Origin: Bodo saltans
Taxonomy: Eukaryota > Euglenozoa > Kinetoplastea > Eubodonida > Bodonidae
Assembly: GCA_001460835.1 (NCBI GenBank)
Contig: CYKH01002220.1
Coordinates: 114,868-178,867, forward strand
Length of the DNA stretch: 64,000 nt
Direction: 5' to 3'
Part shown: piece by piece, positions 2,241 through 22,300 of the stretch
How positions within the stretch are numbered: the first letter of the stretch is position 1
How the letters are laid out: the number at the start of each line of letters is the position of its first letter
Translations under genes and position numbers: made by a program
The notes under the pieces: generated by a model
Database searches by the model: none
The model's input: the letters and a program-made list of their open reading frames with translations, nothing else
Told to the model about the DNA's origin: nothing

Positions 2241-2544
2241 GGAAGAATGAAGAACACCTATCATCATTGTTCACTCGCTGTTTTTTTCTTCTTCTGAATC
2301 ACCATCGCTCGCAAGACATGAATTTTGGAGTTGTTTCATACCTCCTCAACGACAACGCTTTAGTTCGTTACGTTCAAATTAAAGAAAATACCTGTACGAA
2401 TTTTGAAAAAACCGAATCACTGAACTCAGTTGATGTTGAACGACACTGCATCTTTTGTCGGAGATTGTTCGTACTTTTCCCGTTGCAATGTGAATCAAAA
2501 TAGAAGCACCAGGGAAATTGACTGTCACCACAACAGGGAGTCAC
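2241..2544 (+). other. Intergenic region with probable splice acceptor
   Basis: This AT-rich spacer holds the 3' UTR of the coiled-coil gene and the leader of the next gene. A pyrimidine tract at 2281-2296 is followed by AG at 2316-2317. A second pyrimidine-rich stretch at about 2471-2487 is followed by AGs near 2503 and 2511. Several ATGs follow the first AG, so the second site would give the cleaner leader. No gene is seen here. Confidence 0.5.
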
Positions 2545-5379
2545 ATGTCGTCGGCGAAGTTGCTAGTACCCTCTGCAGTTGCAGTTGCCCAAAACGCATC
2601 GTCAATTATAGATGACGATGCGTTTTCTGACACTCTTGTATCCACTGCCATCCACGGCGATGACGATGATCGTGATGATTCCACCAACAATGATGCTGTC
2701 AACGTGCTTCTTGATCGATTTCTTTACGAAGCCGCTCTGTTGTTCGCCACGGTGCACCAAGGGTCGTACTTGTGGAATTTAGTAGAATCACTAGGTGCTC
2801 CTCGTGGCAAAGGAACGAAGGGAGACTTGACACAGGTTCGTGACGTGTTCATCGGCTCATATGTTGGGAATAGAGCCCTTGTGGCACTATGTAGTACGAT
2901 TCGCATCATGCTTCCAAATGTCGCCACGATTAGCATGGTCAACGCGTCCCTTTACGCTGGAGATTCGGAGCCGAGCAACATCAACGGTAACACAACCATT
3001 CAGGCCATGTGCTCTTTGCTTTGTGGTCATCCTTCACTAAAGCACTGGGATTTGTCGAAGAACGATATTGGAGTCGCCGCTTTGCAAAGCCTCGTTGCAT
3101 TGGTGAAGGGAACGCCGTCGATACTTTCCATAGATCTCCGTGACACGTTTGTGAAGGAAAGCGATCGATGGCAGCTTGATGCCGTATTGGCAGTCAACAA
3201 GAGAAAGGCAGAACGCGTGGCGGCATCATCTCCGCTCAATCAACACGGCAAACCCACCACTAATTCATCATCCACCAATGCGAACCACGAGGATGGGGTC
3301 CAAAGGCATCTTTCTTTAAAACTGCCCATCAACGGCGTTGCTAGCCTGCTTTCAACATCGATGCTGATGCACGCGTCCCAGAAAATGAGCTCGTCTCAAC
3401 TGCTTTCCCCCAAAAAGTCTGTTGCCTCGGCGGCTGCAGGTGCAATCGCGGCATCCCCATCTCAAATTATTGTCACAGATGACATGGGCTCGTTGCGCCA
3501 CTTGAAGTCCGTTCCTGGCAGCCCCCATGGTGGTCCTGCTAGCCCCGGTGGAGCGACCACCAACGCGGGAAGTGGTGCTGTGCTCAAGCGAACGCCAGTT
3601 TCGATCCCGTACCTACGCAGCAAGAAAGATCCGCATTGCCTTGCCGCGTCAACCATGAGGTACATTCGTAATCGTGTTCCGCCACCAACTGCAGCACTAG
3701 CATCTGCACAAACGGCGTCGAACTTGAAAGAAGGTTCTTCGTCGCTCGTTCCCTGGCCACGCGTCTTGTCTAACCTTGACATGACGAAATCTGCTGATGG
3801 AAAAGCTCGTGCAAATATTGCTCAGTTGTTGACGCCTGCGTGGCTCAAAGGAGCGGCCGCACCACAAACAGATGCCCAACGAATTATGATGAGAGAAGTG
3901 GTGCGCCGAACTTGTGTGTTCCAGGCAGTGTCTCAGCAATTGTTCCTAGCACCGCCGAGGCCACCCGCTGAAAACGGTGGGATTCCGTTGTCTGTACAAG
4001 CAGTGGGGGGCATGGTCGGAAAGTCTCTTGCGCAAGCCGACTATGAAGCTGTCCTTTATCGCCAACGTCTTCAGCAGGACCTCATTTTAGATGCCGTGGT
4101 GGAGTGTATGTCGTTGGTGCAGCTTACGGTTGGGGAGCCGGTGTGGGAAAAGGGGGACAAGGCTCGTAACGTCTATCTCATTCCACTTCCTGCGCCGCTC
4201 AAAGAGAACAAGTCTGGTTCGCCCTCCTCCGCGCGAAAATCGCGTGGAAATGGCGGCGCTGCCTCTTTTAGCTCCTCACCTGACTTAAAATCAGACGCTT
4301 CCATTGCAGAGTCTGCACCGCCACCACCGCGACAATTGCGGTTTGGTGCTGTGATGTCGAGCGGCGAAGTGCCATCCAGTGGCAAATCTTCTCCGAGCCT
4401 TCTCAGCCCAATGATGAGCTCGACACGAACTCAAGGAGGTGGTGGGTCTATGAGGCTTGCACAGATCCCGCCACTCCCAACACAGAGTATTGAATCCCGT
4501 ACGATGCCCCAGGGCCAATTCTTTGGGTATGACGAAGCCCTTCCGTTAGATTCCACTGCAGGGCCTGGACGTGTACGTACCACTCTTTGCACTTTGTGCC
4601 TTGAGGAGGGTGACGTCCCGCAACATTTGCTGATGCAATCCCCACTCACACCTAATCAGAAAACGACGCCGCCCGCGGAAGCAACAACTGCTACTGCTAC
4701 TGAGGACGTTGCACGTGAAGGTGCACCTCAGCTTCCATCGCTCGGTAGTGACCTCAACAACGAATCGGTGAAGAGTGTATCCGTATGGTGTATGCGTCGT
4801 GAGGCGTTCGAAATGTTCTTCTCGGAGCCGTTGTTTGCGCAGCGTGTCGTGTCACGCCGCATCATTGACGCAATGCCATGCATGCTCGGCGTCGACGCAC
4901 AACTTCGGTTGTACCTTGGAGACCTTCTTATGAACCCAACTGTGATTTATGAGCGTGAGTTGCCGCTGTCTACATCGGAAGGCAATCATGGACGTGTGCC
5001 ACCAGAGTCCGTGGATGTCGTTCCTTTCACACAGCTCCTTGATCACGTTATTCTTGTAGAAGAGGGTTCGATGTGTGTGCGGCGACAAGGGCAAGAAATG
5101 TCTGTCTTTGGACGTGGAGATGTGATTGCGTTCGATGGAAAGCGAGACACTGCGACAGCCACAAAGGGTGAGATTTGTGAAGGGCTGCGTTGCGTGTTGA
5201 AGACTGGAAATATGCCTTCATGGAAGTTTCACGTGCTGTCTCTTGTTGAGCTGCGGCGATCCCTCCCAAGTGAACTTGTAGAGACGATTGCCGTTCAAAC
5301 TCAAAAGAACTTCAAAGAAGTTGACGCGCGCTTAGACAACTCTGGCTGGGGTCGCCGCAGCAAGCGTACACCAATGTAA
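2545..5379 (+). CDS. Leucine-rich repeat and divergent cyclic-nucleotide-binding-like protein
   Basis: The protein is 944 residues counted from ATG 2545; the open frame upstream begins only at a TTG. Residues about 96-215 contain LRR/RNI-like helices and strands (pattern LxxWDLSxNDIG, then LxSIDLRDT). Residues about 510-550 resemble the start of a cNMP-binding beta barrel (ILDAVVECMSLVQL, then GEPVWEKGD). A Ser/Pro-rich insertion follows. Residues about 835-876 resemble the second half of the barrel (VEEGSMCVRRQ, FGRGDVIAF, then RDTATATK in the place of the phosphate-binding cassette). The cassette is degenerate, so nucleotide binding is uncertain. LRR and cNMP-fold proteins in kinetoplastids are often flagellar or cAMP-response proteins; a role here is not established. 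Confidence 0.8.
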   Translation: MSSAKLLVPSAVAVAQNASSIIDDDAFSDTLVSTAIHGDDDDRDDSTNNDAVNVLLDRFLYEAALLFATVHQGSYLWNLVESLGAPRGKGTKGDLTQVRDVFIGSYVGNRALVALCSTIRIMLPNVATISMVNASLYAGDSEPSNINGNTTIQAMCSLLCGHPSLKHWDLSKNDIGVAALQSLVALVKGTPSILSIDLRDTFVKESDRWQLDAVLAVNKRKAERVAASSPLNQHGKPTTNSSSTNANHEDGVQRHLSLKLPINGVASLLSTSMLMHASQKMSSSQLLSPKKSVASAAAGAIAASPSQIIVTDDMGSLRHLKSVPGSPHGGPASPGGATTNAGSGAVLKRTPVSIPYLRSKKDPHCLAASTMRYIRNRVPPPTAALASAQTASNLKEGSSSLVPWPRVLSNLDMTKSADGKARANIAQLLTPAWLKGAAAPQTDAQRIMMREVVRRTCVFQAVSQQLFLAPPRPPAENGGIPLSVQAVGGMVGKSLAQADYEAVLYRQRLQQDLILDAVVECMSLVQLTVGEPVWEKGDKARNVYLIPLPAPLKENKSGSPSSARKSRGNGGAASFSSSPDLKSDASIAESAPPPPRQLRFGAVMSSGEVPSSGKSSPSLLSPMMSSTRTQGGGGSMRLAQIPPLPTQSIESRTMPQGQFFGYDEALPLDSTAGPGRVRTTLCTLCLEEGDVPQHLLMQSPLTPNQKTTPPAEATTATATEDVAREGAPQLPSLGSDLNNESVKSVSVWCMRREAFEMFFSEPLFAQRVVSRRIIDAMPCMLGVDAQLRLYLGDLLMNPTVIYERELPLSTSEGNHGRVPPESVDVVPFTQLLDHVILVEEGSMCVRRQGQEMSVFGRGDVIAFDGKRDTATATKGEICEGLRCVLKTGNMPSWKFHVLSLVELRRSLPSELVETIAVQTQKNFKEVDARLDNSGWGRRSKRTPM

Positions 5380-5653: not shown

Positions 5654-6787
5654 ATGATCATGGACCAATCGATGACATCTCAGCACCTGGGCGAGGTCAA
5701 CAGCCACAACACCAGCACCACGACTCCAACCGACCGCATCTCCCCAAAGATGGGGCGCGTTGGGTGCCACGACCCGTACAGCCCAAAAGTGCTGCGAGGA
5801 GGAAATGAAACAGCCGAGGCAATCCAGTGGGAGGCGCGCAAGGCGGAAATCGCAGAACTTGCGCCCTCTTCAAGGCCCTCCACGACATGGTCGCCAAAGT
5901 TACCTCAGTTTCTTCAAGCATCGACCCCAAGTTCCCTAAACCACCACGCTGCACCGCACCATCATCATTCCCCCAATCCATCGATGTTTGCCCCAATGAT
6001 GATGCCTGGCATGCAGCAACAACAACAGTTTCCGCCCCCTGCGTACATCAGCTTCCCCAACAACTCAACTGCCAACGTCCATCACAACGCTTTGTCAGAG
6101 GTGTGTACCTTTGTTAGCATTCCTGCTGGCCGTCGCGAAGTTGTGGTTGCTGAAGATTCCAACGCGCTTGCAGAACTGATGCGCTCTCACACCGCCCCAC
6201 CTCGCCCGCTGTTCGTCGGACAGTGCCGCTTCGAAATGTCATCCGGTGAGCTACACTGGCTCCTTGAGCACATTCTTGGAGTCCGTGCACTAAAGATTGA
6301 GCCCCGCGGCCCTGGTTGCTTCGTTGTAGTGCTACGCGATGAGGAAAGCTCCAACAAAGTCCTCCAGCTCCACCGCTGTGTTCTTTTTGATCACGACGGT
6401 GTCTGGTGGGCGAACACCCCCGCTGCTCAGCACCACCTTGAAGCATACGTGCGAGAGTTTTTGTCTGGCCACTACACTCGCCGATCTCGTCTTCCTCGTG
6501 ATACGATGATCGTTGAGCGTCAACGCGGGTCACTCAATCCCCTCCGCACACTGGCGACTGCCACCAACACCGTCACCCACCATCCCATGTCTCGCCATCA
6601 TCACGCCAACGGTGACGACGCCACGAACCGCATTGTTTCGTTGTCGTCGGGGATGAGCACGCCCGCTGACCTACACCAGCGCCAACACCAGCGCCATCAA
6701 CTTCCGTCGTCCGGATCAGCTGCGAGCTCCATCGGCTCATCACCGTCGAACTCGGTGTCTCTTCAAGACTCGTTCCGTTACGACTGA
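5654..6787 (+). CDS. RRM-like RNA-binding protein, array member 1, with HDPY motif
   Basis: This is the first of six tandem paralogues; it has 377 residues. The longer open frame starts at TTG 5483, upstream of a splice-acceptor-like AG at 5560-5561, so ATG 5654 is preferred. Residues 39-42 are HDPY within GCHDPYSPKVLR. This resembles the H(N/D)PY element known in trypanosomes to bind MKT1. A divergent RRM spans about residues 186-255: an RNP2-like LFVGQ strand, an RNP1-like CFVVVL strand, and the family ending VLFDHDGVW. A further conserved strand, LPRDTMIVE, lies at about 279-287. Flanks are Pro/Thr/His-rich and Ser-rich, probably disordered. Likely a cytoplasmic mRNA regulator. Confidence 0.85.
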   Translation: MIMDQSMTSQHLGEVNSHNTSTTTPTDRISPKMGRVGCHDPYSPKVLRGGNETAEAIQWEARKAEIAELAPSSRPSTTWSPKLPQFLQASTPSSLNHHAAPHHHHSPNPSMFAPMMMPGMQQQQQFPPPAYISFPNNSTANVHHNALSEVCTFVSIPAGRREVVVAEDSNALAELMRSHTAPPRPLFVGQCRFEMSSGELHWLLEHILGVRALKIEPRGPGCFVVVLRDEESSNKVLQLHRCVLFDHDGVWWANTPAAQHHLEAYVREFLSGHYTRRSRLPRDTMIVERQRGSLNPLRTLATATNTVTHHPMSRHHHANGDDATNRIVSLSSGMSTPADLHQRQHQRHQLPSSGSAASSIGSSPSNSVSLQDSFRYD

Positions 6788-8628
6788 ACGTAACGCTCAT
6801 ATGGAGACTGATCATCTCGTTGTTCCAAATTCTTTGGGGGAAAAATTGCAGAGTCGAACTATTTATCAAACAGAGAACGGACGAACAACTCGGGCCTCTT
6901 TTTCACAAATGCTGTTGACTGTGTGTTTGCGGTTTGTGCAAAAAAATCATCAGCACTTTGAATTGAACGTCGAGTTTTTTTGAAAGTTCCTTGTTTTTCG
7001 GTGTGGCATAACGCCATACCTTGCATGTTACCAGTTGCACGCAACAAAATCGCGCAGCTTTTCGTGGTCAGATCTATTTATTTTCTTGTTGGTCTCGCTT
7101 CCGTTGCGCCTTTTCCGTTTTTTGACCCTCGGGGCCCCAGTCGTTTTCCTTCAAAAATCCCGACTGACATGTCACAAACTCTTTTTCTTGTCAACGAGAT
7201 TTACGCGCCGCTTACCACGTTTTCTCTCTCATCGCCACGTGCAACTGCGTCTTGTCCCGCGAACGCCCCCATGGGTTGTGGCATTCTTCGCGGTGGTTTG
7301 TATGAGAGTGTTTTTGCGTGCTCTGATCAGCGTGCATGAAGAGGAAAGCGAATTTGTATGAGACGATGCTCGTGTTGCTTGACGAGTGTTGTGATAGTAC
7401 CGCTTTCTGAAGTCTCTTGGCACGTGACATTTTGCCCTTACCTCTGTCAAATGAAAAGTAGAATCAAGTACAACAGCAACGTGATGAGCGAGTGTGAGAG
7501 TTGATGTTTTGTTTTGTGTTTTCTTGTTGGGAGATTCAATTCTATTCCAACAATTGCGACCGGCACATCATCAATTTATTCACCGCCTTCAAGATTTAAT
7601 GAAGTCTCGACGTACCGAAAACCAACACGATTTCTTTTTTTTATCTGTTTTCTGTTGTTCAAACCATTTACCCTCTGTGTTCTTTGAGAGAGGCCTGCAC
7701 TTTCCCCTCCATTTTTTTTATTATATTTTTTTATTGATTATTGGTTGTCGCACCTAAGAAACACTCTTTCTTGTTTTTTCTCACTTTGATTTCCTGCGCG
7801 TGTGTGATTGTTTTCACTAAGTGGGCAAAAGAACGTCAATCACGTGTCAAGTCGAATTGGAATTGTGTATGCCTGGCCGACTTTTTACTGTGATGATGAC
7901 CGTTTGTCGCAAGAGTTACTTGCCTCACTACGTCTAAAAACTTCCCCCTTTTCCCCCTTGCAGAGCCTTTTCTCCCCACTTTTCTCCCCACAAGAATAAT
8001 TCCGTTGTATCCCCTCCCGGGAGCGTTGAGAGGAACATTACACCCTTCGAGAATGTGACAGAAGGGGAGTACCTTGAGAATGCAACTGAGTGGAAAGTGG
8101 AAATGACAACGAAGAAGCGGCAAAATTCAATTGAAGTGAAACATCAAGGAAAGTACAAGAAACAAAGACCAAGTAAGAAACAAAACAAAAAAAATCAAAG
8201 CACAGCACCACAAAATAAAACAAAGCAAAACAAACAAAACACACGATTCTATCACTACCAACGGCGATGGATTTCCGAAGAAAAGGCGACCACGACTTAT
8301 GTGCAAACAAAACAGAGACAAAATACTATCAATTAGGTGAGCACAACAACAAAACAACGTGACATCTATTTTCTCTTCAGTGTCGTGCTGTATCAGTCGC
8401 GTTATAAAACAATGCGAATGATATTGAAGATGCAGTTGAAAATTTCTGAACCGCACGAATCCAAAGTAGCTTCGACTGACTACTCAGTAATTCTCTTACG
8501 CGATGGCATTTGACCTATTGACATTGGTCGCTTCCTTTTTTTTCTCCCACCCCTACCCTCACGGTAGGCTGCGAACAAGAGCAACAGAACTAACTCGACC
8601 ACCCAAAACAAACCATAAAACAGCAAAG
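6788..8628 (+). other. Long (1.8 kb) spacer between RRM paralogues 1 and 2
   Basis: The spacer is T-rich and holds only short frames, most starting at TTG or GTG and lacking coding character. It probably contains a long 3' UTR, which is typical of regulatory genes in kinetoplastids. A strong pyrimidine tract at about 7950-7998 with AGs near 7965 and 7999 is followed by an A-rich, AAAC-repeating island (about 8150-8250). That island lies in a 77-codon Lys/Gln/Asn-rich frame (8103-8336), treated separately in the findings. A second acceptor-like signal at 8531-8567 serves the next gene. Confidence 0.5.
8531..8567 (+). promoter_or_regulatory. Predicted trans-splice acceptor for RRM paralogue 2
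   Basis: A long pyrimidine tract (8531-8560) is followed by AG at 8566-8567, 61 nt before ATG 8629. An in-frame ATG at 8503 lies upstream of this AG and would be removed by splicing here. That is the reason for the chosen start. Confidence 0.55.
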
Positions 8629-9948
8629 ATGAGTGCCCCAATCCGCGTGAATAACAACAACATCAGCAGCAGTGGCAACAATCTACATAACTCCCCTGCC
8701 ACGTTCTCGCGTCTGAGCGGTACGCCTATGATGCTCAGCGGAAGCCCGCGGCTATCCTCTGGCACCCCAGTGGGAACGCCTCCCTCATCTACCAAGATGA
8801 TGGGATGCCACTCACCGTACACTGCAGTGGTGTTGCGCAGTACCGACAGCAGCAAAGTGGCGTCTCCCATCTCGTTACCCCCGTCATCGGCTGAATGGGA
8901 TGCTGCCACGAAATCTGCATCATCGCAGCACCGCGGAAGTGCGACACAGTTGAGTGTGTCGCCACCGGCGTACACGTCTGCTCATGCAGGTATGGGCTCC
9001 CCATCATCGTCGTTCCGCGGCGGCAACAGCAGCAGCAGCAACCATCATCATCATCACCAAACCCAACCGAACGCGTCGCTGCGCAAGCTTGCAGGCCGCG
9101 CGCAGTTTCTGCGATTGGAGGATGTGCCGCTTATTCACTCTCCCTTTGAGGATGTTTCCGCCGACTTGTCCGCTGCACCAATGCAGCACCCATACGAGCT
9201 TCCCACGTTGTTCGTTGGCCAGTTGAAGTACGAGATTACCCCCACACAGCTTGCTCAGATCGTGGAGCACTTTTCGGGTGTCAGGCCTCTGCGAGTGGAG
9301 TACCGCCCGAAGGGATGTGCAATGCTCTTCCTTAAGTCTCGTGGAGACGCTGGTGCCGTGATGCAGCTCCACAAGCGTCTTCTCTTCGACTACAACGGCG
9401 TTTGGTTCGCTGCAGACGAATCACAGCGTGCTGCGTTGGATGAGGCCGCACGAGTTCGGCTTGAACGACTGCCAAATGACTGCGTTTCAGTGGAAGAACC
9501 ACGAAACCGACCACAGTACACAATTCTAGATGGCCGCGTCGTTCCTTGCCAGCAATTCGGCAACCCCACCTCCCAACACCACCAGCACCTGCAGCAGCAC
9601 CACTCGAACAACAGCAGCACCACCTCCTACAGTCCGAGCGTTGCCCACGCTCAAAGCCCTCCGAACGCGCCATCGTGGTGCTCTCAGCTGCCACCTCCTC
9701 CTCCCTCCTACGTCGAGACGACCACCACGACGCACCCCAATCCCCAGCGTAGCAGCGGAAATGACCACTCCATGGGTGCCACCGCAACTCAGTCGCTAGC
9801 GAGCACACCTCGTCAGTCGTTGTGTGGGAGTCCAGTTGCGCGCTCACGTATTGGAAGCGATCCGATTGCGCCGTCAAGCCCGAGTGCGCATGTTATGGCG
9901 AGCTCAGTAACCTCGAACTCGGGTCTGCAAAGATCGTATCACCTCTAA
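8629..9948 (+). CDS. RRM-like RNA-binding protein, array member 2, with HSPY motif
   Basis: The protein has 439 residues. HSPY lies at residues 61-64 within GCHSPYTAVVLR, closely matching the HDPY box of member 1. The RRM-like domain spans about residues 194-263: LFVGQLKYEIT, then an RNP1-like CAMLFLKS, ending LLFDYNGVWFA. The conserved downstream strand LPNDCVSVE is at about 281-289. The N-terminal 180 residues are Ser/Thr/Pro/His-rich with a His run. The C-terminal 150 residues are rich in Gln, His, Ser and Pro. An in-frame ATG 42 codons upstream was rejected because a pyrimidine tract and AG lie between it and 8629. Members 1 and 2 are the closest pair by their boxes. Confidence 0.85.
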   Translation: MSAPIRVNNNNISSSGNNLHNSPATFSRLSGTPMMLSGSPRLSSGTPVGTPPSSTKMMGCHSPYTAVVLRSTDSSKVASPISLPPSSAEWDAATKSASSQHRGSATQLSVSPPAYTSAHAGMGSPSSSFRGGNSSSSNHHHHHQTQPNASLRKLAGRAQFLRLEDVPLIHSPFEDVSADLSAAPMQHPYELPTLFVGQLKYEITPTQLAQIVEHFSGVRPLRVEYRPKGCAMLFLKSRGDAGAVMQLHKRLLFDYNGVWFAADESQRAALDEAARVRLERLPNDCVSVEEPRNRPQYTILDGRVVPCQQFGNPTSQHHQHLQQHHSNNSSTTSYSPSVAHAQSPPNAPSWCSQLPPPPPSYVETTTTTHPNPQRSSGNDHSMGATATQSLASTPRQSLCGSPVARSRIGSDPIAPSSPSAHVMASSVTSNSGLQRSYHL

Positions 9949-11003
9949 AGAAAATAAAGAAAATGGGCTTCTAACACAAGCTCTTTCTCATTTTTCTTTA
10001 GATTGATCCGATTTTTGACGCAAACGAGTTCCGTGTTTAGTGTGTCTCCCTACTTTCATTGGAGGGGCGTTGCTCTTGCACACACTTCCGCATTTCATCT
10101 CAAGGAGGAATCATTTCAGCTCAAAAAGTCTTGCAACAAACAGTCTTAATGCAGACGCACTTCCACTGCAACCGGCGCGTGCCGATGGAGAGCCAAAAAA
10201 AAAAATTTCGGTATCCCTCCTCTTTGTTTTTCATGAAGGTCGATCATTGTTTTGGTTCCTCTGTTTTGCGTTCGCTCCGTTTATCTTCCCCCCCTCCTCC
10301 CGTTGCGCGCGCCATTCTTAGGTTCCTCGGTTGTTGCTTGTCGTCGTTTCAAAATGATGAGAAATGTTCAACCGAAGCATCTTTTGTTGAGACAATCAAC
10401 AGTTTGGCTATGAGTTGTGTTGCACCCGTTTCTCTTTCCCCCCTTTCCCTCATTGGCGCCGTCAAATCTTGCACATAAACAGAACAAGATTTCGACGAAG
10501 CTGAGTCGCGTGTGTGCTTTCTCTCTCTTATTTGTTTTGTTTTGAGAATACAGCAGTGGTTATTTTCCCCCCTTTCTCTTTTCACTTCCCGAGCGGCCTT
10601 ATTATCGTTCAACACACTTGAGCTTTTTTTTTTTTTGCATGTATGTGTGGTGACATCCACATGTTCAATACAAAGAAAAAATGATTCGAAAGTGAACGGG
10701 CTGTGTTAGTCCTGGGGGAGAAGTGATGTGTTGTGGTTTTAATGATGGCGTTGTCACGTAGTGATAACCAAAGAACACTGCTTCTACTTTTTTTTTTTTT
10801 GCTTTTCACTACAGCGCGTGTTCTCCTTTCCGTTTCATTTTCTTTTTTACAGGCACACAAGTAAATTCGTCCAAAACCTTTCGTTGCTTGCCGCTGATTT
10901 TTTCTTTCCTTTCTATGTGTTATGTGGAGTTGTTCTTGTTCTTTTTATTTCTTTGTGCGGGTTAGGCGAAACCATCACCACCAGACAACACAACACATCA
11001 GTC
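9949..11003 (+). other. 1.05 kb spacer between RRM paralogues 2 and 3
   Basis: The spacer is T-rich noncoding DNA with many T-runs (for example 10623-10635 and 10788-10801). It is presumed to be 3' UTR of member 2 plus the leader of member 3. Frames here are short, T-rich and lack conserved character. A pyrimidine-rich stretch at 10931-10954 with AG at 10964-10965 is the likely acceptor for the next gene. Confidence 0.45.
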
Positions 11004-11726
11004 ATGTCATACACTTCTTCTGCTTCAGCAAACTGCCCACGTGAGCGACGAACCAACTCGCGAAGTCCTGACGGACGCCACAACCCATATCACAAGCCAC
11101 TGCTTGGCCGTGAAGAGTTATTGTCTTCGCTGAACGAGTCGCTGCGGTACATTCCGTATTCCGCACCTCAAAGCGATCGCAGTGCGAATTATTTTTCACG
11201 GGACTACAACGGCGGCGATCTCAACTCCGCTACGTGGGTGTTTATTGGTCAGTCGTCTGCAGAGCTGTACCCAAGCCAAATGGCGAAGCTGTTGATTGCC
11301 ACCGCCGGAGTCGATCCAGTTGTGGCCACAAAGAACCACACAGTGAACTGCATGTTCGTCAACCTCCGCAGTCATGCGGACGTCAACAAAGTTCTCAACA
11401 CCTTAAAGCGACGTTTGCTTTTGGACTACGACGGTGCGTGGCTTGCGTCGAGCATCGAGGGGGAGTTGACCCTTGCTCAGCATTGCTCCGCATGGAAGTT
11501 GCCAAATTTGCCAACGAAGCCGATCACTGTGGAAGTCTGCGAACACCCGCCTCACTGCATGCGTGCACGGGCCCCTGTCAGCTCCAGCTCAGTGCCGCCG
11601 ATGTTGTTCCTCTCCGCCACAACCTCAAGTCAACACGCAATGAACCACGTAGAGCGGGGTGGACGTACCATGCGCAACGTCACTTGGACCACGCCACAAG
11701 CGCAAGCCAACACTCGTCCTCTCTAG
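11004..11726 (+). CDS. RRM-like RNA-binding protein, array member 3, with HNPY motif
   Basis: The protein has 240 residues counted from the first ATG after the acceptor-like AG at 10964-10965; the longer open frame begins only at GTG 10761. Residues 26-29 are HNPY, the canonical form of the MKT1-contact motif known from trypanosomatid RNA-binding proteins. The RRM-like domain spans about residues 77-151: TWVFIGQ as RNP2, CMFVNLRS as RNP1, and the ending LLLDYDGAW. The strand LPTKPITVE is at about 169-177. A segment YIPY... NYFSRDY... SATWVF just before the RRM is shared with member 4, making these two sister copies. The C-terminal tail is short and polar. Confidence 0.85.
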   Translation: MSYTSSASANCPRERRTNSRSPDGRHNPYHKPLLGREELLSSLNESLRYIPYSAPQSDRSANYFSRDYNGGDLNSATWVFIGQSSAELYPSQMAKLLIATAGVDPVVATKNHTVNCMFVNLRSHADVNKVLNTLKRRLLLDYDGAWLASSIEGELTLAQHCSAWKLPNLPTKPITVEVCEHPPHCMRARAPVSSSSVPPMLFLSATTSSQHAMNHVERGGRTMRNVTWTTPQAQANTRPL

Positions 11727-12573
11727 ACAAATTGTAACGCGCTCCTTCTTTCATCGCGCGCCATTTGCGGCACAGAAGAGGAACAAACAAACAAACAAAA
11801 CAAAACATCTACGACAAACACACACCCACAGTCAGTGCAATGATCCTTCGAACCTCGAGTTGCCCTTAGTGCACATTATGTGTGGGCGATCATGCTACTT
11901 TCCCTGCATGAACGCTTTCATCATTTTGCTGTGCTCAGAGGTGTTGCTTCTCAAATTCTCGTGGCTTTCGACCAGGAATTCATTTTTCACGTTCTGCTTC
12001 TTTTTGTTTTTATCATTGATTTATTTTGCACACTTCCTCCCGGCTCATACACATCATTTTTTTCTTGTTTCTCCGAGAGTCACTGTCCTGTCTTGCTTCC
12101 CTCCAGTTGAACGAGCTGCCTATTTCTAGTCGTGTGGTAATTGCGGTGATGAATCGTGTGGGTGCGTGTTATGTGCACGTTTCTCTTCACCAACTCGCGA
12201 CAAAAGTGAACGTAGGTGTTGCAAGCAAAAAAAAGTTCGTTACAAGTGCGAGGGGAGGTGAACTCAGTGCTCTAGTTTTTTGCTTTCCCAACCTCCCTTC
12301 GGCAGTGCTTGTTACCAATTGCAGTTGCCCTTTTTAACAGAAAAAAAATGAACTAAGAGGTTTTTCAAGCACATGTTGATGGCGAAAGGTAGTTTTACAC
12401 ACTGGCTGATCTTGGATGCCTGGTCTGACTAGCGTTTATTTCCTTTGGAGTGACATTTTCCCCCTCTCATTTGTCCTTATTTCCACTGCAACAAACAGGC
12501 GTTGAAACGAAATTGACATTCTCCCCGGGCAAGAACGACCGGTTTAGCAAAAAACAAAAGCAAAAACATCCCG
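11727..12573 (+). other. 0.85 kb spacer between RRM paralogues 3 and 4
   Basis: The spacer is noncoding and T-rich. A short AAAC-repeat island lies at about 11781-11808, similar in kind to the A-rich island before member 2. A pyrimidine tract at about 12455-12484 with AG at 12497-12498 is the likely splice acceptor of the next gene. No supported gene is seen. Confidence 0.45.
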
Positions 12574-13401
12574 ATGCACTCTGTCAACTTTGACCCAGCC
12601 GTCGATTCCCACGGTGATGCTCCTCCGTCCTCCACGAACGAACTCATTGGACGCCAAGATCTGCTCGATTTGCTTGGTCCTTCGCTTCACTACATTCCTT
12701 TCGCAGTTCATGAGGTAGATGACGTTGTCAACTACTTTTCGCATGACTTTGACAGCTCACGGGTTCACTCCGCGACGTGGGTTTTCTTCAGCGTTCTTTC
12801 GTCTGAACTTCAACCTTCGCAGTTGGCCAAGCTCCTTATTGCCACTGTTGGAGTTGAGCCTGCCATAGTGATGAAAACGTCCAACCATCGCATGTTCGTA
12901 AACCTCAAGTCTCGATCAGACTTGAAGAAAGTCATTCGACTCAATCGCACGCTGTTGCTCGATCACCATGGTGCTTGGTTCGCCACTGACGCAGATGGAC
13001 AGAGCATCCTTACCACTCACATGAAAACTTTCAACCGTCGCTGCAGCACACAAAGTCGTTTGTTGCCTGCTGCCTGCGTGTCGGTTGACCTTTGCACAAA
13101 ACTGATTCGCCGTTTACTGACTGCTGGTTCGGGAATGATCGGTGCGGAGCCTCCTCCACCCTGTTCGAGTGACGCTACCCATCATCATCACTTCACCAAC
13201 CACCTTTCATTGGTTCAGTACAGAGAGCGAGTATTAAAGCTCGGCCAACGACTACTTTCGATGAAATCTGCTGGAGGCACGTCCGTTCACCAAGGAGGAA
13301 TGAGCTGTTGCTCTGTCCCTCCTTCAGCAACACAGTGGCTCGCTCCCGGCGTGTTTCTTGGGATCACCCTCAAACCAGCGTTGAAAGCAGCATTTCTCTA
13401 A
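12574..13401 (+). CDS. RRM-like RNA-binding protein, array member 4, lacking the HNPY-type motif
   Basis: The protein has 275 residues. The pre-RRM segment (YIPF... NYFSHDF... SATWVF) and the RRM-like core (about residues 68-139, with RMFVNLKS as RNP1 and the ending LLLDHHGAW) match member 3. The downstream strand LPAACVSVD is at about 164-172. Two features have changed. No HxPY motif remains in the N-terminal 65 residues. The RNP2-like strand reads VFFSVLSSEL, so the GQ dipeptide shared by the other five is gone. The frame is intact and the core conserved, so the gene is probably functional but specialised. The start is the ATG 76 nt after AG 12497-12498. Confidence 0.82.
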   Translation: MHSVNFDPAVDSHGDAPPSSTNELIGRQDLLDLLGPSLHYIPFAVHEVDDVVNYFSHDFDSSRVHSATWVFFSVLSSELQPSQLAKLLIATVGVEPAIVMKTSNHRMFVNLKSRSDLKKVIRLNRTLLLDHHGAWFATDADGQSILTTHMKTFNRRCSTQSRLLPAACVSVDLCTKLIRRLLTAGSGMIGAEPPPPCSSDATHHHHFTNHLSLVQYRERVLKLGQRLLSMKSAGGTSVHQGGMSCCSVPPSATQWLAPGVFLGITLKPALKAAFL

Positions 13402-13827
13402 ATGGCCCCTCAACAATAACCAAACCCTCCTCGCTCATGATACAATTCCTCCTCGCACTACCTATCTTTTTTGTTTCTGTTTTTCTCCGTCATTGATCTC
13501 TCATTCCACTTTTTCTCGCGTGCGCCTTCGCCGAAGTGTGGCCTGATTCATCGTCCCGTGCCTCCCACGAGTGAGGACTGAAGAACTTCAGGTATTTGCC
13601 CCAAGTACACTTCGCTGCAAAGACTGCACAGAAAAGTGATTTTTTATTTTGTCCACACAGTGCGCCATAGGCTTCGTTTGGATCACACAGAGGAATCTTT
13701 TTTTTTTTTTTGACTTGAGAACAGTTGACGCTCATTTATTGCTAGTTTGCGTTACATTTTTCTTCCAAACCTATTGCTGTTTTTAGAACAGCATTCACAC
13801 GCGAATCAAAAAGAAAAAAAAACGAAA
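13402..13827 (+). other. Spacer between RRM paralogues 4 and 5
   Basis: The spacer is noncoding and T-rich, with T-runs near 13698-13711. A pyrimidine tract at 13755-13784 is followed by AG at 13785-13786, giving a 41-nt leader to the next gene. Nothing else is seen. Confidence 0.45.
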
Positions 13828-14517
13828 ATGCACATGTCATCGATATTTCGCTCTTGCGCACGATCCAGCGCGTTCCCAGCAGCTGATCTCGTTCATAGCC
13901 TGTGTGGAGTTGACGAAAGCGCTTGCGTGACCCCGCATGTACCCTCAACTCGCTCTTTCGCACGGCAAATTCAACGGATTGAGGAGCAAGGCCGCAAGAG
14001 TCTTTGCGCGTCAGCCGTGGCGTTTTATCCATTGTCACTGCCCGTTGGCCACAAGAGTGCACCATACCGAGCTTTGGACTTCACTGGGAGCATCGACCCT
14101 GAGCACCACCAGTGGGTGTTTTTCGGACAGCTTCGCAAAGAGCTGATGAGCCATCAACTTGCAAACCTCCTCATTGACCTGGTTGCGGTTGAGCCGCTGC
14201 TGATTGTGAAGAAAATGCAGTGTATGCATGTCTTGCTCCGGTCTGCAGATGAAGCTGAAGCTGTGAAGAGCCTCAGTGGCTGTTTGCTGTTGGATTACCA
14301 AGGTGCGTGGTTTGCCGACAATGCTGAAAAAATGCAACTCCTGTCCAGAGAGAGCGAGGGCAATCCAATCCGCTTTCTCCCGAAAGCTCCAGTGACTATT
14401 GAACCGTGTGCGAAGCCTCCTGTCATTCACGGTGCGATTGGAAAGCTGCGACGATCGCCTTCAGCGTCATCGTCGGCTTCCAACTCGTCGACCTCCTCGT
14501 TGCCACTGCCACATTAA
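13828..14517 (+). CDS. RRM-like RNA-binding protein, array member 5, lacking the HNPY-type motif
   Basis: The protein has 229 residues from ATG 13828; the upstream open frame begins at TTG 13747, before the acceptor-like AG at 13785-13786. The RRM-like core spans about residues 95-165: QWVFFGQL, then CMHVLLRS, ending LLLDYQGAWFA. The strand LPKAPVTIE is at about 184-192. The N-terminal 90 residues do not align with the other members and have no HxPY box; HKSAPY near residue 79 is only a distant resemblance. The tail is a short Ser-rich run. Inferred to be an RNA-binding regulator that has lost or replaced the presumed recruitment motif. Confidence 0.8.
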   Translation: MHMSSIFRSCARSSAFPAADLVHSLCGVDESACVTPHVPSTRSFARQIQRIEEQGRKSLCASAVAFYPLSLPVGHKSAPYRALDFTGSIDPEHHQWVFFGQLRKELMSHQLANLLIDLVAVEPLLIVKKMQCMHVLLRSADEAEAVKSLSGCLLLDYQGAWFADNAEKMQLLSRESEGNPIRFLPKAPVTIEPCAKPPVIHGAIGKLRRSPSASSSASNSSTSSLPLPH

Positions 14518-15156
14518 TGAGGATTTTCGTAATGACAGGGAGAGTGAGAGCGTGTATGTGAGTAACTGTGCTTAAGTGCCTCCCTATTCTTCACGTCCCC
14601 CCTCTCTTGCGTCACCTAGCCACGTTGCGAGGCGTAGTTTGGCGAAAATGAAGTGAAAAAGTTACTGAACCCACTCTCTCAATTTCCTTTCTCCTTTTAT
14701 TATTCTGACTTGCTCTGCTGATTGCCGCCTCTGTTTCCAGCAGATAGTTCCAACGTGTGCTGGGATCAGTTGTCAGGCATGCTCAACGCAGTGGTGCATC
14801 GTCGTCCTCCCCTCATTTCTGTTTGCGCAGTCCGCTTCGTTTTGTTGTTGAGCCGGGTCTGGTGATAACCATCCAAGGTGCGTTCACCAGCGGCCTCTGC
14901 CGTTTTCGTTTGCGCTGCGCTGTCATTTTCCACTAGTGTGCCAATAGAGTGGTCTGCAGTGACAGCTGACTATGAAAAAATCGCTCAACGCATTGTCGGT
15001 CACAATGACTGTCTGCTATTTTTGACAAATGTATATGTACTGAGGTTCCCTTTCCCACCTCGCTACTGTTTTTTTTGTTCTGCTCATGTTGCACCGTGAA
15101 TTAAAAAAAAGAAAGAAAGAAATAAAGAAAGGAAGCACCAACCAAAACACACAAAG
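14518..15156 (+). other. Spacer between RRM paralogues 5 and 6
   Basis: The spacer is noncoding and pyrimidine-rich. Near its end a T/C-rich stretch (about 15046-15083) is followed by a purine-only run, mostly A and GAAA units, at 15103-15136. This run probably forms part of the leader of member 6. No supported gene is seen. Confidence 0.4.
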
Positions 15157-15897
15157 ATGTTCTCTGAGCATCGACGCAACGATCCGTACAACACACGAGT
15201 CACAACCAACCCCGTGCACCGTGCGCTGCTTAAGCACTTGAGAACAAATGACGTCGGATTCGTCAGAGTGCGTAACATGACCCCAACGACCCGAGAAGAC
15301 TATGAGTGCCCACAACATGACAGTGACTCAGAGTTAGATTCGACGCAGTCATTTAATGTGACGGAGACATCGCAACATTTGTTTGTTGGTCAATTGCCCT
15401 CTGAGCTTGCTCCCACTGAACTCGCACGATTGATCCGTAACGTGATGGGTGTAGATCCACTGCGCGTGACGCGAGGGAACAACAGAACATGCATGTTTGT
15501 GCAACTTAGGAACAGCCACGAGGCAGATAGAATGTTAAGCTTCAACAAGAGGTTGTTGATGGATACTGATCTCGTCTGGATCGACAAGTCCGATAGTGAT
15601 ATACTGGTCGAACACATGGCCCGGGATAGGCCATGCCAGTGCGCTGGGAGGTCAGCCCTACCGAAGCATTGCGTGACGATAGAAAAGCGAAATATTCGAC
15701 AACAGGTGATGAGCCTCCCACTGCGACCAAGTGATGGACCAATGCCGAATCCAAGAGCCCAATCTGCTCCTCAGCTACAACCAGCTCCCTCGACAGTAGA
15801 AGCTGCGCTTTATGAGCCAGATCGTTACTTCGGTGAAGATCAAGAGGTAGACGACGAGGATGTGCTCGTGTTTGACGACTTTGGTGGCTTGAACTAG
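15157..15897 (+). CDS. RRM-like RNA-binding protein, array member 6, with NDPY motif
   Basis: The protein has 246 residues. Residues 8-11 are NDPY (context RRNDPYNTRV), which looks like the HDPY box with His replaced by Asn. The RRM-like core spans about residues 74-145: LFVGQLPSEL, then CMFVQLRN. The ending is LLMDTDLVW, the most altered of the six, lacking the usual G before VW. The strand LPKHCVTIE is at about 168-176. The C-terminus is acidic. The gene sits at the 3' end of the array, next to the unrelated giant surface protein gene. Confidence 0.84.
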   Translation: MFSEHRRNDPYNTRVTTNPVHRALLKHLRTNDVGFVRVRNMTPTTREDYECPQHDSDSELDSTQSFNVTETSQHLFVGQLPSELAPTELARLIRNVMGVDPLRVTRGNNRTCMFVQLRNSHEADRMLSFNKRLLMDTDLVWIDKSDSDILVEHMARDRPCQCAGRSALPKHCVTIEKRNIRQQVMSLPLRPSDGPMPNPRAQSAPQLQPAPSTVEAALYEPDRYFGEDQEVDDEDVLVFDDFGGLN

Positions 15898-16380
15898 TGC
15901 AGCAGAATATTACGAAGCATCAACGCATCTAACGCGCTCCATCGAAATAGACTCCTCGCGCTGTGCGAGACTCGCGGTTCAACCTGTTTTTTATTCTATT
16001 GAAGCTAAACAGGAATATTTTTGAAACTCCCAAAGACCCCCACTTGCAGTGAAAAAAATTAGAATTTGATTGTAAGGAACCATGCTGCACTTTTTGACAC
16101 TTGAAGTGTGACTTCCCTCCTGTGACGAAAACAACCGCCAAATTTCATCCTTCTTAAATTTATCACGAATAACGATTCGTCGCTCAGTAGCATCTGTCGC
16201 ATCCTAACAAACTAATCACCACAGGTTTCGTTTGTCACTATGGATTGGATTCTGGTGCACATGAATTTGTAGTTCCACTTGCGTGTTTTTTTTTTTTCCT
16301 TCACAGCAAACAGAAGGAAAACAGAAGGAAAACAACTGAATATACAAAAACAACGAAAAGTCAAACTCACAAACACTCAA
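15898..16380 (+). other. Intergenic region before the giant surface-protein gene
   Basis: This AT-rich noncoding spacer ends in a strong acceptor-like signal (T/C run at 16286-16302, AG at 16305-16306). The leader after the AG contains a short tandem duplication of a CAGAAGGAAAA-type unit at about 16311-16335. No gene is seen. Confidence 0.45.
16286..16306 (+). promoter_or_regulatory. Predicted trans-splice acceptor for the giant surface protein
   Basis: An almost pure T/C run is followed by CAG at 16304-16306. The first ATG downstream is 16381, giving a leader of 74 nt. This decides the start codon against the TTG at 16279. Confidence 0.6.
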
Positions 16381-19300
16381 ATGAGCAGAATATTAGAAAT
16401 CCCAGCGAAGGTTGCTTTCGAACAGAAAGCAGAAGCTTCGCTGCGCCGCCAGCGCCACTCTTTCAACTCGTTGGTGGCATTGTTCTCTTTACTTTGCCTA
16501 TTATTTAGTATTCCAGCGAAGGCTCAGACTGCTCCAGACGCATGCAGCACTTGGGTTCCTCTCGCTTGCAACGATTACGTCTCGGATCGAGCTACTGCAG
16601 CAATCCTGTGCACACTAGAAAACAAAACCATTTCTGGCGCTGTCAACAGCTTCGATACGGGCCTTCGCCCGACGACTCCAACAAGTCCTCTCACGTATTG
16701 TGTGCAAGCATCGTATTATGAGTTCAACATTCCTGCTGCTGTGCGAAATACAACGAGAACTCTCGTCACGCTGATTGGAAGTATCGGTGGTGTCCGATTG
16801 AACGAGCCTACCGACGCCACGAAGCTCCACGTTGTGACCAACCTGGGCGTCGAGTACCCGCTAGGGCAGCTTGTGCATGGGTACAACACGGTAATTGGGC
16901 AGCAGGCGGATATCTCGCGCCCATTGCCTCAGTACATGTCGAGCACGGCGTATTCGTACCCCTACAACGGTGTCCTGACGTGCTTTAACCAAGCCGCGTA
17001 TCAGCCATGGCGCATTCCAGTTGCACTACAAAATCTTGGCATTGCGAAGGTCCGAATCTACGACCCCTCGTTGACTCTCAAAGTGTACAGCATCACTGTA
17101 GACACTTGTGATTCCTACAGCGGCTTCACGGAGGTTGACACGTGGATGGGCACGAGCACCACCAATTCATCGGTAGCACTTGACCCGAAGCAGACCAGCA
17201 CAGTTGCGCCGTTAGATGTGAATATTGTCAACGTGTGGCCCATTTGTGCAGCTGCGTGTTATTCGCAGCAAGTGGTCACACCGGGTTCCGGTGGTGTCCC
17301 TTGCGTTGGATGGTTTCTGAACAGCACATCGCGTTTGTGCTACTTACTCCAAAACATGGCGGCACTACGAACGCCGTTGTCGACCGACTCCACATGGAGA
17401 AATAATTCTGTAGGTTGGGTTGGCATTCTGCCACCACGCGTCCGCTGGGCAAGTGCCATATTCTCCCCTGGGTCGCTCAACCCCTCATTCCCTACCATCA
17501 TGTTCTCTCGCCCTGACCTCCTTGGTGGGTTTTCTCAGATGGCGCTTCTTTTTACATATCGAGCAGATGTAAGGCGAACTCGGAAGTTATTCCTGCGAAG
17601 CTCATCCCGATTTGCGGTGGCGTCTACGCAGCCAGCCATCTCATTTTTGACGCTAAACAAGTTGACGTCGTACGTCACTGACTTCGCAACAGGGACTGGC
17701 GGAAGAATTTCAGATTGCGGCTCACCCACTCGACAGGCGACAGTCGGAGCGCCGCTCGTAAACAATGCGTCCATTTCCCGCTGTACGCAGTTCGGCTACT
17801 GCCCCCCTCAAACGGTCGGAACGTCAAGCGGCTCTCTCGTGGGACGCTTGACGATGGTGTATCAAGAGAACCCAGCAACTGCAGTGAGCTGCGGTGGTGG
17901 TTCGGCAAGGATGGCGTCGATGCTCTTGGTGGCGTTCGATGGCGTAGATTACCAAGGAGCCACCTACTCCCTTGCCACCCTTGTGTCCTCCTCCACCGCC
18001 ACGACAAGTGTATTCACTACGCTGGTGGCGAACCACTATCTCACGTCGTCGGCATCGTTGTCTATTATTGACCGATCAGATGTGTCACTGGTAGACAGCG
18101 GCGGCGCGGTGACCGCACAGTCACTCGTGATGTACCAAGTCACCGGCCTTCTCCCCTCAGGCGGTGCGACCTACTTCAAATCACCCACGTGGTTCTGGAC
18201 GGATAGTGATCAGCGCCCCTCCTTCACCTCGGTCCAGTGCACCCTAGAAACCGCTTTCTCATACAGCATCGTGCAAGGCAATGCGGGCTACCCTACGAGC
18301 CGGTACAACTGCAACATCTCTTCGTCGTTGATGGATATCGTTGACTTGTGCAACAGTGATCTCAACTGCACTGGCGTGACAACCCTTGCCGTGAACAGCA
18401 CGACGGAGATTCCTTGGTGCATGATCTCAAACCAAACGGTAGATACCACGAACCCAGATGTTTTAAACAGTAACGCAACTCTTCTGGTGAAGGGATGGAA
18501 TCGAACCTCTGATAACCCCGACGCTCTCCTGTGCCGATTTCCAACATACGGCAGCTACGGTGTGACAGTCCGCGTTGCCCAGGGCGTTTCAAACGGCAAC
18601 ATTATCATCAAGGCAGACAATACTACCGTCGCCACATGCCCAGGCTTGACAGGCCAGGTTGGAGAGGACAGCTGCCTCACGTTCACCTCATGCTTCAGCG
18701 GAACAGTGCCAAAGGAAACCAACGAGATCGTCGTACAATTTATTCCTGGGTCGTTCCCTCTCATGTGGCAGTGCAGCGCCACCGCCATGCGCGCCATTGT
18801 CACATTCGATGGCCTCGCGATTGTGCCGATTCCAACATCGAATTGTATCTACACGGCAAACACGTCACTGATGACGTCGTGTAATACCCGCGTACCGATG
18901 ACATCGTCTGTCATGAACGGTTCTTGCGGTGCTACGGGAGGAAGTCGGTACGCGGCCGGTATTCCCTCACCGAGCGGTTCTGCTTGCTCAAGCTCAACCG
19001 CAGCGGAAACGTCTGTGTCGTTTACGCTGCCTGGCGCTGGAGCAGTTCTCCAAACGTTGTATCTCTCGCTAGACCTCTCCAACGCAACCGATGAGCAGAA
19101 GCGGTCTGCGATGCTATCTGTTCATGCAACGGACGGCTTGCATCGTGAGGTGACCCTTGGGTACGTCACCGCGTCGACCACTTCAGGCATGTCAACACTT
19201 TCCAGCAGTGCCATTGGTTGGTCTCCTTACCAGTCCACAAAGTTATGTTCTAACGCTACATTCTGCGACATCGACTGGGGGGCGCAGATCACTGAATTGC

Positions 19301-22300
19301 CCGTCAGTCAACCGTTGTTCATCAATGGAATCACAAAAGTCACAGTCCGTGGTGCCAATGTCACGACTCTAGGACTGTCTGGTTTGATCACCAACATTGC
19401 CAACTGTCCCCTTCCTCTACGCCGCAATGCCTCGGCCAATGAACTGATGTTCTACTTTGTTGCTCCTGGGACTGTGCCAACCACTGGTCTTGTCATCTCA
19501 ACGTCAAGCCCCGTTGCTGACTTTATGGCGTGCGCCGTGCTCTGCGGAGACAATGCATACTGTGGTGTGTACACCTACGACCCAGCGACGCAAGCGTGCA
19601 CTCTGCGGAATGCCGCGGGCCGCTGGATGCCGGCTGCATGGCCAATGGCAACGGGCTCCGTGGTCTCTGGGACACGTGCACGTGGCTCATACCTTCGATC
19701 ATTTTCTACCATTTCTGCTCCCACCGGATTTGCATCGACGGTGGATCTTCTTGCGGGTCAATTCCAGTACGTTCTGCTGTTCTCTGCCCAGACGCTTCCA
19801 GACGACTATTCTGTTGTTCTCCAGTTTCCGTCGCTGACCGCATACCAAATTTCTGTCCTTCAGACTGGTTTTGCTGGCAACGGTGCCGTGATGTCAGGGC
19901 TGGATTCCTACGGTGCCGCTCAAGTATGCGGAAACGATTTTGACGCTTTTATTACCTCCGGCGGTGCTGCCGGCGTCAACAACGACTGCTCGAATTTTAT
20001 CACCTGCCAAGTTGTCTACCCGACCGTAGCAACGACATCTCCACTCCACATCCGTGCTGTGATGAGTTCCACTGGGGGCAACACCACCACTTGCGGCGGT
20101 GGGCCGTTGATGGGCCTCGTTGGGTACAACGGAGGCGCAGCCCCTAGCTCCAACGCCGAATATTCTCGTGTCACGTTTGTTGCCCAATCCGCCGTTGTCT
20201 CTCCTCAGCCCCTTGGCACCGTCGTGACGGAGGTGTTTAACGTGACGTACAAGGGTGCCGCGACGAAGTTCGTTCTGCGTGAGTCTGCCTCGGCCAGCCC
20301 CACCATTCTCAGCTCTACCGTTGGTCAGTCGTCCTACTGCCGCATTCGCACAAAGACGACATATCAAGTGTACCAACTCAGCGGACTGATCACCGGCACC
20401 TCCTACGGATGCGGCACCGCGACCACGCTGGCCGCAGCCATGAACGCGTGCAACTTGGATGCATTGTGTCTGGGCTTCACCATGTCCTCCACCAATACGT
20501 TTGGCTGTTACACCACATCGGCAAGCTACGCGACCGCACCATCGATGTTTATGAGGAAGATCTCGACGACATCATGCACGTTCACTGTTCAAAGCTTTTC
20601 GATGGTGTCTGTGAGTGTCCTCGATAACGGAGTGTATCAAGGCTCTGGCAACAACGTCCAAGTAAAATGGAACGGAAGGGTTGTGCGCATGTGCGGATCT
20701 TCGCGGCCGTTTGTGACACCCGCGGCATACTCCACTTCCACAACAGCACAGTGTTCCACGTACTTGGAGTGCTTCAATGATCTGCTTCCAGGGGTGGGCA
20801 CGGTGGAGGTTGTGTTTCCTAGCCTCGCCACGTCAACTTGCTCCGTGTATCAGTCGGCGGTGGTTGTGATTACACCGCAATCCTCTGGCTCGCAACAAGT
20901 TGCCACGAATGCTGGAGCCGCTTTGACGGGCGTTCGAACCATCAAGTACTCCCCATCGGATATTTCATTCAACATCTTGCAGTATGGTGCCACCAGAGTA
21001 GGTGTGCATATCAAACAAGATCGATTTTTCGCCGTTGGCAGCGTGCAAACATTCGCTCTCAATGTGTCCGTAGGCAGCCAGGTCATGAGTTTGTGCGGAG
21101 GAACCGTCGGCTTCACGGAGGGCTTGGGCATGGACAGCCAGTGCCAGACGTACTACTACTGCGGTCCCACCACTCAAAACAATCCCATCGCGTACCCCTC
21201 CTTGACCGGCCCCATCACGATCACTATGGAGAACAAGACTCTGTGCGTCACCACCAACTGCAACGGTCGATTTGATGCGCTCGTCCTTACGGACGGGATG
21301 TTGCTCACTGCCATGCCGTCCCAGTCATACTTCCGTTCCATGTCTGTGTACACAGTCACTTCCGGAAACTACACGGCGCAGTTTGGATCCAATCCTTCTA
21401 ATATTTTGTCGTACCTGCGGTCCAACACCACGAGGCTTGGCCTCCTGTTCCCAAGCCTCAACGCATCGCGAACGACCGTGTACGGGACCGTTTTTACGCA
21501 CTACACAGGTGTTACCAACACCGCCGATGAGTACCTTGCCATCGTCGACGACAGATTCACGAATGAAGAAACCAAGACGCTTACCAATGCACGTGGTGCT
21601 TGCATCATCGACGACTTTACCGATGAAACCATTGATCAGGGCTGCCAATTTCAACTTGGAGCAACGCAGAATAAAATTCTTGTCTCCGCTGCACAGACAA
21701 ACTTCAATCAAATTGGTCGCACCATTTCTGTGATTGTGAACGACGTCACTGTCGCAACGTGCGGTGGCGACAATCAATTTCAAGGGTACCAAGGTCTAAC
21801 AGGCTTATGCAACAATTACTTTACGTGCTACAACGATTGGGTCACGGCCGGTGCCCTTGTGCGCCTCGTCTTTTCTTCTGCAATGGCGTCCACGTCGACC
21901 TGCAGCCCAGCTGCGATGGCACTTATTGACGCCAGCAGCGCGCCTTACGTTGCCCCTTTGAATTGCTCAAACCCCGCGTTCCCGTTCGCGTGCCAAGCGG
22001 ACCGTAAATGTCTTGCTGCGAGCCTCGTGTGTAACGACGTGAACGATTGCAGCGATCGTTCCGATGAGGGCCGCTGCCAGAACTGGCGGTTTGCAGGAAC
22101 GGACTTGGGCTTCCCGGCGTCGTGCCCGCCCCTATCAACAGTCACTGACGTCACTCGTGAAGAGTGCGTGCGAAACGCGGTGATTCTGCAGAGCCCTACT
22201 GTGTTTCAATTCAACGCATCTGTTTGCCGACTATTCTCATGCGTCGACTTTAGTGCTCCGAATGCATCCGTTGTCACAATTCCGGGCGATTCCTTTGAAA

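Follow-up and report, generated by a model that had tools for sequence, protein, structure and literature searches.

A family of divergent RRM proteins in Bodo saltans, many with an H(N/D)PY-type box: candidate adaptors for MKT1

A tandem array of RRM genes and its relatives in the genome

We analyzed a 64,000-nucleotide stretch of the Bodo saltans genome (assembly GCA_001460835.1; contig CYKH01002220.1, positions 114,868 to 178,867, forward strand), referred to here as the window, in which six consecutive genes encode proteins with a common, divergent RNA recognition motif (RRM). Four of the six proteins carry a tetrapeptide identical or similar to those that dock RNA-binding proteins onto MKT1 in trypanosomes (Table 1). 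The six open reading frames (ORFs) all lie on the plus strand, are intact, and require no introns; because every reading frame is open, we rejected a pseudogene array. A polypyrimidine tract followed by AG occurs within 500 bases 5' of the start of each gene, which is the pattern expected with trans-splicing. For member 2, the tract and AG at about position 8567 favored the start at 8629 over the upstream ATG at 8503.

The common domain is about 105 residues long, with pairwise identities of 25 to 46%. The RRMs of members 3, 4, and 5 are 40 to 46% identical to each other, and the best genome match of member 4 is member 3 (46% in the RRM). Against Pfam RRM_1 (curated cutoff, 20.7 bits), two of the full-length proteins scored below the cutoff (18.5 and 18.3 bits) and four had no listing, while the isolated domain of member 2 scored above it (22.7 bits). 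The domain has the beta-alpha-beta-beta-alpha-beta fold of the RRM superfamily, backed by an AlphaFold prediction (predicted local distance difference test score for the member 2 RRM, 91.8) and by two comparisons with solved structures: profiles matched RRMs, and the structures nearest to the model were RRMs. Among the 19 family domains read (i.e., those other than the C484 protein described below), position 2 of ribonucleoprotein motif 2 is Phe in 17, and position 5 of ribonucleoprotein motif 1 (RNP1) is Phe in 5 and His in 11. The family differs from the CELF/CUGBP and hnRNP A1 RRMs in that the CELF matches were only 13 to 21% identical to the member 2 RRM model, RNP1 carries Cys where an aromatic residue is usual, and the member 2 model has an additional helix (residues 80 to 91) between the hairpin and the last strand. 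A CPEB-like RRM2 was considered but is not claimed, as no CPEB chain was among the matches listed. A profile comparison of the family with a canonical two-RRM protein of the same genome gave a probability of 2% and was uninformative.

Genome searches started from members 2, 4, and 6, were extended with three paralogues as queries, and were followed by reading of the DNA around the matches. The family comprises at least 19 genes, i.e., the six in the window and 13 at four other places. Their proteins are mostly small, with a low-complexity N-terminus bearing the tetrapeptide and then one divergent RRM (two RRMs in two genes). A second cluster of six genes spans the ends at which contigs C459 and C460 face each other; among these genes, one has two RRMs, one has an in-frame TAG, and one is cut by the contig gap. 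Of the remaining seven genes, C928 carries four, C197 carries two, and C484 carries a single gene for a two-RRM protein. The copy with the TAG (L030:4605-5318) has the box MFCHNPY and then the stop codon before the RRM, and it may be a pseudogene, an allele, or a read error. Window members are 12 to 35% identical to those of the C459/C460, C928, and C197 clusters. When a profile of the six window domains was run against 18 proteins, no C459/C460 protein scored worse than 3.1e-12 and no C197 gene worse than 4.5e-5, and the C928 gene E4 was found at 9.3e-8. The other three C928 genes matched weakly (0.001 to 1.4), and two of them (E1 and E3) count as family members via a chain through E2 and the C459 genes. 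A joint profile built without the C484 protein found it at 2.8e-15 among 1312 ORFs. The initial annotation had described six consecutive genes with a common divergent RRM as a locally expanded family; the genes and the domain were borne out by the ORFs and the fold, and "locally" proved too narrow for a family that occupies five places in the genome.

The tetrapeptide box inside and outside the window

In Trypanosoma brucei, H(E/D/N/Q)PY is reported to be necessary and sufficient for interaction with MKT1 (PMC6597758), and a longer consensus, (Y/W/T)(R/T/Q)H(N/D)PY, has been published (PMC5435347). All four tetrapeptides that the initial annotation had placed in members 1, 2, 3, and 6 are present, each on the N-terminal side of the RRM. 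Just two of them, HDPY (member 1) and HNPY (member 3), match the published H(E/D/N/Q)PY form, and the other two are variants. A motif scan found no box in the N-termini of members 4 and 5. When each N-terminus was shuffled with its composition kept, [HN][NDS]PY, present in four of the six window N-termini, was expected in 0.048 (P = 2.6e-8), and strict H[ND]PY, present in two, was expected in 0.008 (P = 2.8e-5). Members 1 and 2 have GCHxPYxxxVLR in common, and the remainder of the N-termini mostly aligns poorly. Members 3, 4, and 5 have a second common stretch before the RRM (ESLRYIPYS, PSLHYIPFA, and AVAFYPLSL, respectively), which is retained where the box is absent.

Because the box had been proposed from the window sequence only, the paralogues outside the window provide a separate test. 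The N-termini of the second cluster read MYRHNPY, MFCHNPY (twice), MYCHNPY (twice), and, without His in place, MDREMSHHQNPY. One C928 protein begins with MRWRHDPY, and the C197 proteins have MTYRHNPY and MTYRHSPY slightly inside the N-terminus. The canonical YRHNPY and WRHDPY thus occur at or near the N-terminus of paralogues outside the window, and in several paralogues the box starts at residue 4 or 5. Of the N-termini tested, H[NDS]PY is present in 8 of 12 from paralogues outside the window and in 11 of 18 from the family overall, where shuffling predicts 0.031 and 0.053, respectively; 9 of the 18 have the strict H[ND]PY. For [HN][NDS]PY in the 12 outside paralogues, P was 1.7e-17. No [HN][NDS]PY was found in 41 other plus-strand ORFs of at least 250 amino acids (aa) (31,984 residues; 11 loci).

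These figures bear on whether the window tetrapeptides are functionless chance matches in low-complexity N-termini. A chance origin would be in keeping with three observations: members 1 and 2 have long N-termini with much H, N, P, and S, two of the four window boxes are off consensus, and an unrelated shorter ORF (L031:1982-2671) does contain HSPY. The shuffles, however, preserved composition, and GCHxPYxxxVLR stands out amid N-termini that otherwise mostly align poorly. On the basis of the shuffles and the background ORFs without the motif, a chance origin is disfavored, and we consider it very unlikely.

Within 10 residues after the box, V[LI] occurs in 6 of 10 tested genes (0.55 expected; P = 2.7e-6, post hoc and uncorrected). 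The test took 10 of the 12 boxed genes, with the TAG copy and the contig-gap copy left out. The dipeptide is perhaps part of an extended docking motif. Two box-less C928 genes (L046:4210 and L046:5789) start with a similar D[MF]WGA stretch (MLAEDKSYDMWGAPM and MATIDASDFWGAAP), possibly another docking tag.

A tree of 21 RRM domains places members 3, 4, and 5 together with support (98/96), and of these three only member 3 has the box. The distribution of the box is consistent with a short motif that was lost, or gained, more than once. The ratio of nonsynonymous to synonymous substitution rates (dN/dS) was 0.23 to 0.36 for four gene pairs of the second cluster, and members 3 and 4 were saturated in this comparison. 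The clade of members 3, 4, and 5 would also suit a mixed family, in which boxed members recruit MKT1 and box-less ones (4, 5, and others) block overlapping RNA sites, so that one RRM type would supply both an on and an off form. At the 40 to 46% identity of these RRMs, however, the sites may differ, and the box-less members may use another activator; we regard such a division of labor as improbable.

Genes for MKT1 and a PBP1-type domain, and further proteins with the box

The genome encodes candidate partners for the box. MKT1_C (E value, 4.1e-24) and MKT1_N (1.8e-12) were found in one 746-aa protein (L048:1583-3823), for which a comparison with solved structures gave no match at an E value of 0.001. 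The LsmAD domain occurs at one place (C92; E value, 3.9e-18) and suggests a protein of the PBP1/ataxin-2 type. A second MKT1_N gene lies on C898. It is apparently split into overlapping ORFs (L049:12-2114 and 2059-3720), the first with a very high content of H, N, and Q; the split seems to be a frameshift in the gene or the assembly, or else to reflect two genes.

A degenerate DNA pattern for Y[RS]H[ND]PY, run over the 29.3-Mb genome, gave five forward matches (four YRHNPY and one YSHNPY) and no reverse match; the reversed peptide gave none. All five matches are in frame within proteins having RNA-binding domains, so the motif marks RNA-binding proteins here, as in trypanosomes. Three of them lie outside the family, in a two-RRM protein (C138; Pfam RRM_1 E value, 1.7e-21) and in two CCCH zinc-finger proteins (C216 and C789), whose CX8CX5CX3H finger was read by eye. 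The gene adjoining the C216 match encodes a second CCCH protein, with the box YQHNPY; the two genes form another tandem pair, encoding proteins of a different fold that probably dock MKT1.

The box could also be real and dock another partner, for which the second MKT1_N protein (perhaps an MKT1L) or some other protein that reads short motifs would be examples; the family might then act without the MKT1-PBP1 complex. The presence of the C898 gene, the V[LI] after the box, and the Cys before His in many family boxes (GCHDPY, GCHSPY, FCHNPY, and YCHNPY), where the published consensus has (Y/W/T)(R/T/Q) (PMC5435347), all point in that direction. We nevertheless think it rather unlikely, given that some family members have the canonical YRHNPY and WRHDPY and that the motif recurs in CCCH and two-RRM proteins elsewhere in the genome.

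Table 1. Positions of the genes, domains, and motifs (positions without a locus prefix are those of the window)
Feature	Position	Strand	Remarks
Member 1 (W1)	5654..6787	+	377 aa; Q/H/N-rich linker, RRM, low-complexity C-terminus
Box HDPY, member 1	5768..5779	+	Residues 39-42, in GCHDPYSPKVLR; fits consensus; V[LI] after box
RRM, member 1	6203..6523	+	
Member 2 (W2)	8629..9948	+	439 aa
Box HSPY, member 2	8809..8820	+	Residues 61-64, in GCHSPYTAVVLR; variant; V[LI] after box
RRM, member 2	9202..9498	+	Predicted structure (AlphaFold)
Member 3 (W3)	11004..11726	+	240 aa
Box HNPY, member 3	11079..11090	+	Residues 26-29, in GRHNPYHKPLL; fits consensus
Second pre-RRM stretch, member 3	about 11120-11230		
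RRM, member 3	11232..11537	+	
Member 4 (W4)	12574..13401	+	275 aa; without box
Second pre-RRM stretch, member 4	about 12670-12770		
RRM, member 4	12775..13092	+	
Member 5 (W5)	13828..14517	+	229 aa; without box
Second pre-RRM stretch, member 5	about 14000-14110		
RRM, member 5	14107..14406	+	
Member 6 (W6)	15157..15897	+	246 aa; acidic C-terminus
Box NDPY, member 6	15178..15189	+	Residues 8-11, in HRRNDPYNTRV; variant without His
RRM, member 6	15370..15690	+	
V[LI] after box, outside window	L030:2145; L031:789; L047:2509 and 4297		
Two-RRM protein (C138)	L050:625-1605		YRHNPY near C-terminus
CCCH protein (C789)	L054:3-608		YRHNPY near C-terminus
Two adjacent CCCH genes (C216)	L052:106-921 and L052:1018-1944		Each with Y[QS]HNPY
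Very large protein downstream of the array	16279-26946		About 3,500 aa; LDL-receptor class A repeat

A proposed route from RRM to MKT1

Among parasitic kinetoplastids, the MKT1 complex has an important activating role. We think it fairly probable that the genes described here encode a multiplied set of RRM adaptors, through whose docking on MKT1 chosen mRNAs are stabilized or translated. The docking is made more credible by the canonical boxes in the paralogues, by the same motif in RNA-binding-domain proteins outside the family, and by the presence of genes for MKT1 and an LsmAD protein. From these observations, together with the genes themselves, their fold, and the enrichment of the box, we infer MKT1 binding, activation, RNA targets with their specificity, and a role for the box-less members. 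The initial annotation had proposed a family of mRNA activators acting through an MKT1 box; the boxes outside the window strengthen its docking part, and activation by the box cannot hold for members 4 and 5, which have none.

In the proposed mechanism, the RRM would select an mRNA and the H(N/D)PY box would dock MKT1, which would bring PBP1 together with its partners (LSM12, XAC1, PABP2, and EIF4E6/EIF4G5 in T. brucei). The recruited complex would then make the bound mRNA more stable or better translated. Duplication would have multiplied the targeting domain, with the recruiter tag retained by most copies. Tag-less members (4 and 5 in the window) may bind related sites without MKT1 recruitment and could be competitors.

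A scheme leading from MKT1 through PBP1 and partners to stabilization and translation is reported for ZC3H11 and CFB2 (PMC4055773, PMC8051951, PMC6597758), and of 21 MKT1-associated RNA-binding proteins tethered in T. brucei, only three are reported not to have activated (PMC6597758). The MKT1-docking regulators described in T. brucei and Trypanosoma cruzi, i.e., ZC3H11 (HNPY), CFB2 (RYRHDPY), and TcZC3H12 (HNPY) (PMC4055773, PMC8051951, PMC8312218), resemble the present family in having a short H(N/D)PY box that lies apart from the RNA-binding domain, and MKT1 and a PBP1-type LsmAD domain are encoded in the genome studied here. Those regulators, which are of the CCCH or F-box type, carry the box in their C-terminal part, whereas the family has one RRM type, a box on the N-terminal side, often with Cys before His, and at least 19 genes, mostly arrayed. 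The proposed mode of action is that of a known kind of protein. The large RRM family itself is undescribed in the open-licence literature searched, where titles and the starts of abstracts yielded no description of a bodonid RRM family with an MKT1 box.

ZC3H32 is reported to have a variant of the box, KHTNNPY in T. brucei and KRNNPY in Bodo saltans (PMC5435347). This His-less form is close to the RRNDPY of member 6; ZC3H32 differs in having three CCCH fingers. KRNNPY matched the genome at C236:2459-2476 (plus strand) and C888:17373-17390 (minus strand), and the reversed-letter control of KRN[ND]PY also gave two matches.

Several points weigh against a family of MKT1-docking activators. T. brucei ZC3H32, with its NNPY variant, is reported to repress when tethered (PMC5435347), so the box is no guarantee of activation. 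RNP1 is degenerate, with Cys at position 3 in 15 of the 19 domains, and RNA binding by the family RRMs is therefore not assured. Within the window, the Ser of HSPY and the missing His of NDPY put half of the boxes off the published consensus. H[NDS]PY is missing from 7 of the 18 tested N-termini and, in a separate motif listing, from the 19th gene (C484). The paralogues are not independent of each other, and the shuffling P values treat them as if they were. On the RRM tree, the box needs six changes, and 140 of 500 shuffled labelings were as low; the box thus has no clustering beyond that of shuffled labels, and the tree does not establish a single origin. The C197 pair had a dN/dS of 0.63. 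In the genome-wide test, two of the five matches are the family members (C197 and C459) that had suggested the pattern, the nucleotide-reversed control gave two forward matches, and Pfam lists no family for the C216 and C789 CCCH proteins.

A broader and more tentative proposal is that one RRM type with an N-terminal MKT1 tag was amplified to at least 19 genes, with repeated loss or gain of the tag. The paralogues might differ in the mRNAs that each sends to one common activator hub, in a role like that of a transcription factor family, and tagged and untagged copies might form activator/competitor pairs. Gene control in kinetoplastids is reported to be mainly post-transcriptional, so that RNA-binding proteins act in place of transcription factors (PMC5568443), and a review calls for comparing the interaction networks of parasitic kinetoplastids with those of free-living ones as a way to understand complex life cycles (PMC4413820). 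A 19-gene family coupling one RRM type to an MKT1 tag is a concrete, testable part of that comparison, with tagged and untagged paralogues as natural built-in controls. The multiplied adaptor set suggests that these proteins help in the post-transcriptional gene control of this organism. If this is true and the host is a free-living bodonid, an elaborate MKT1 code would predate the origin of parasitism.

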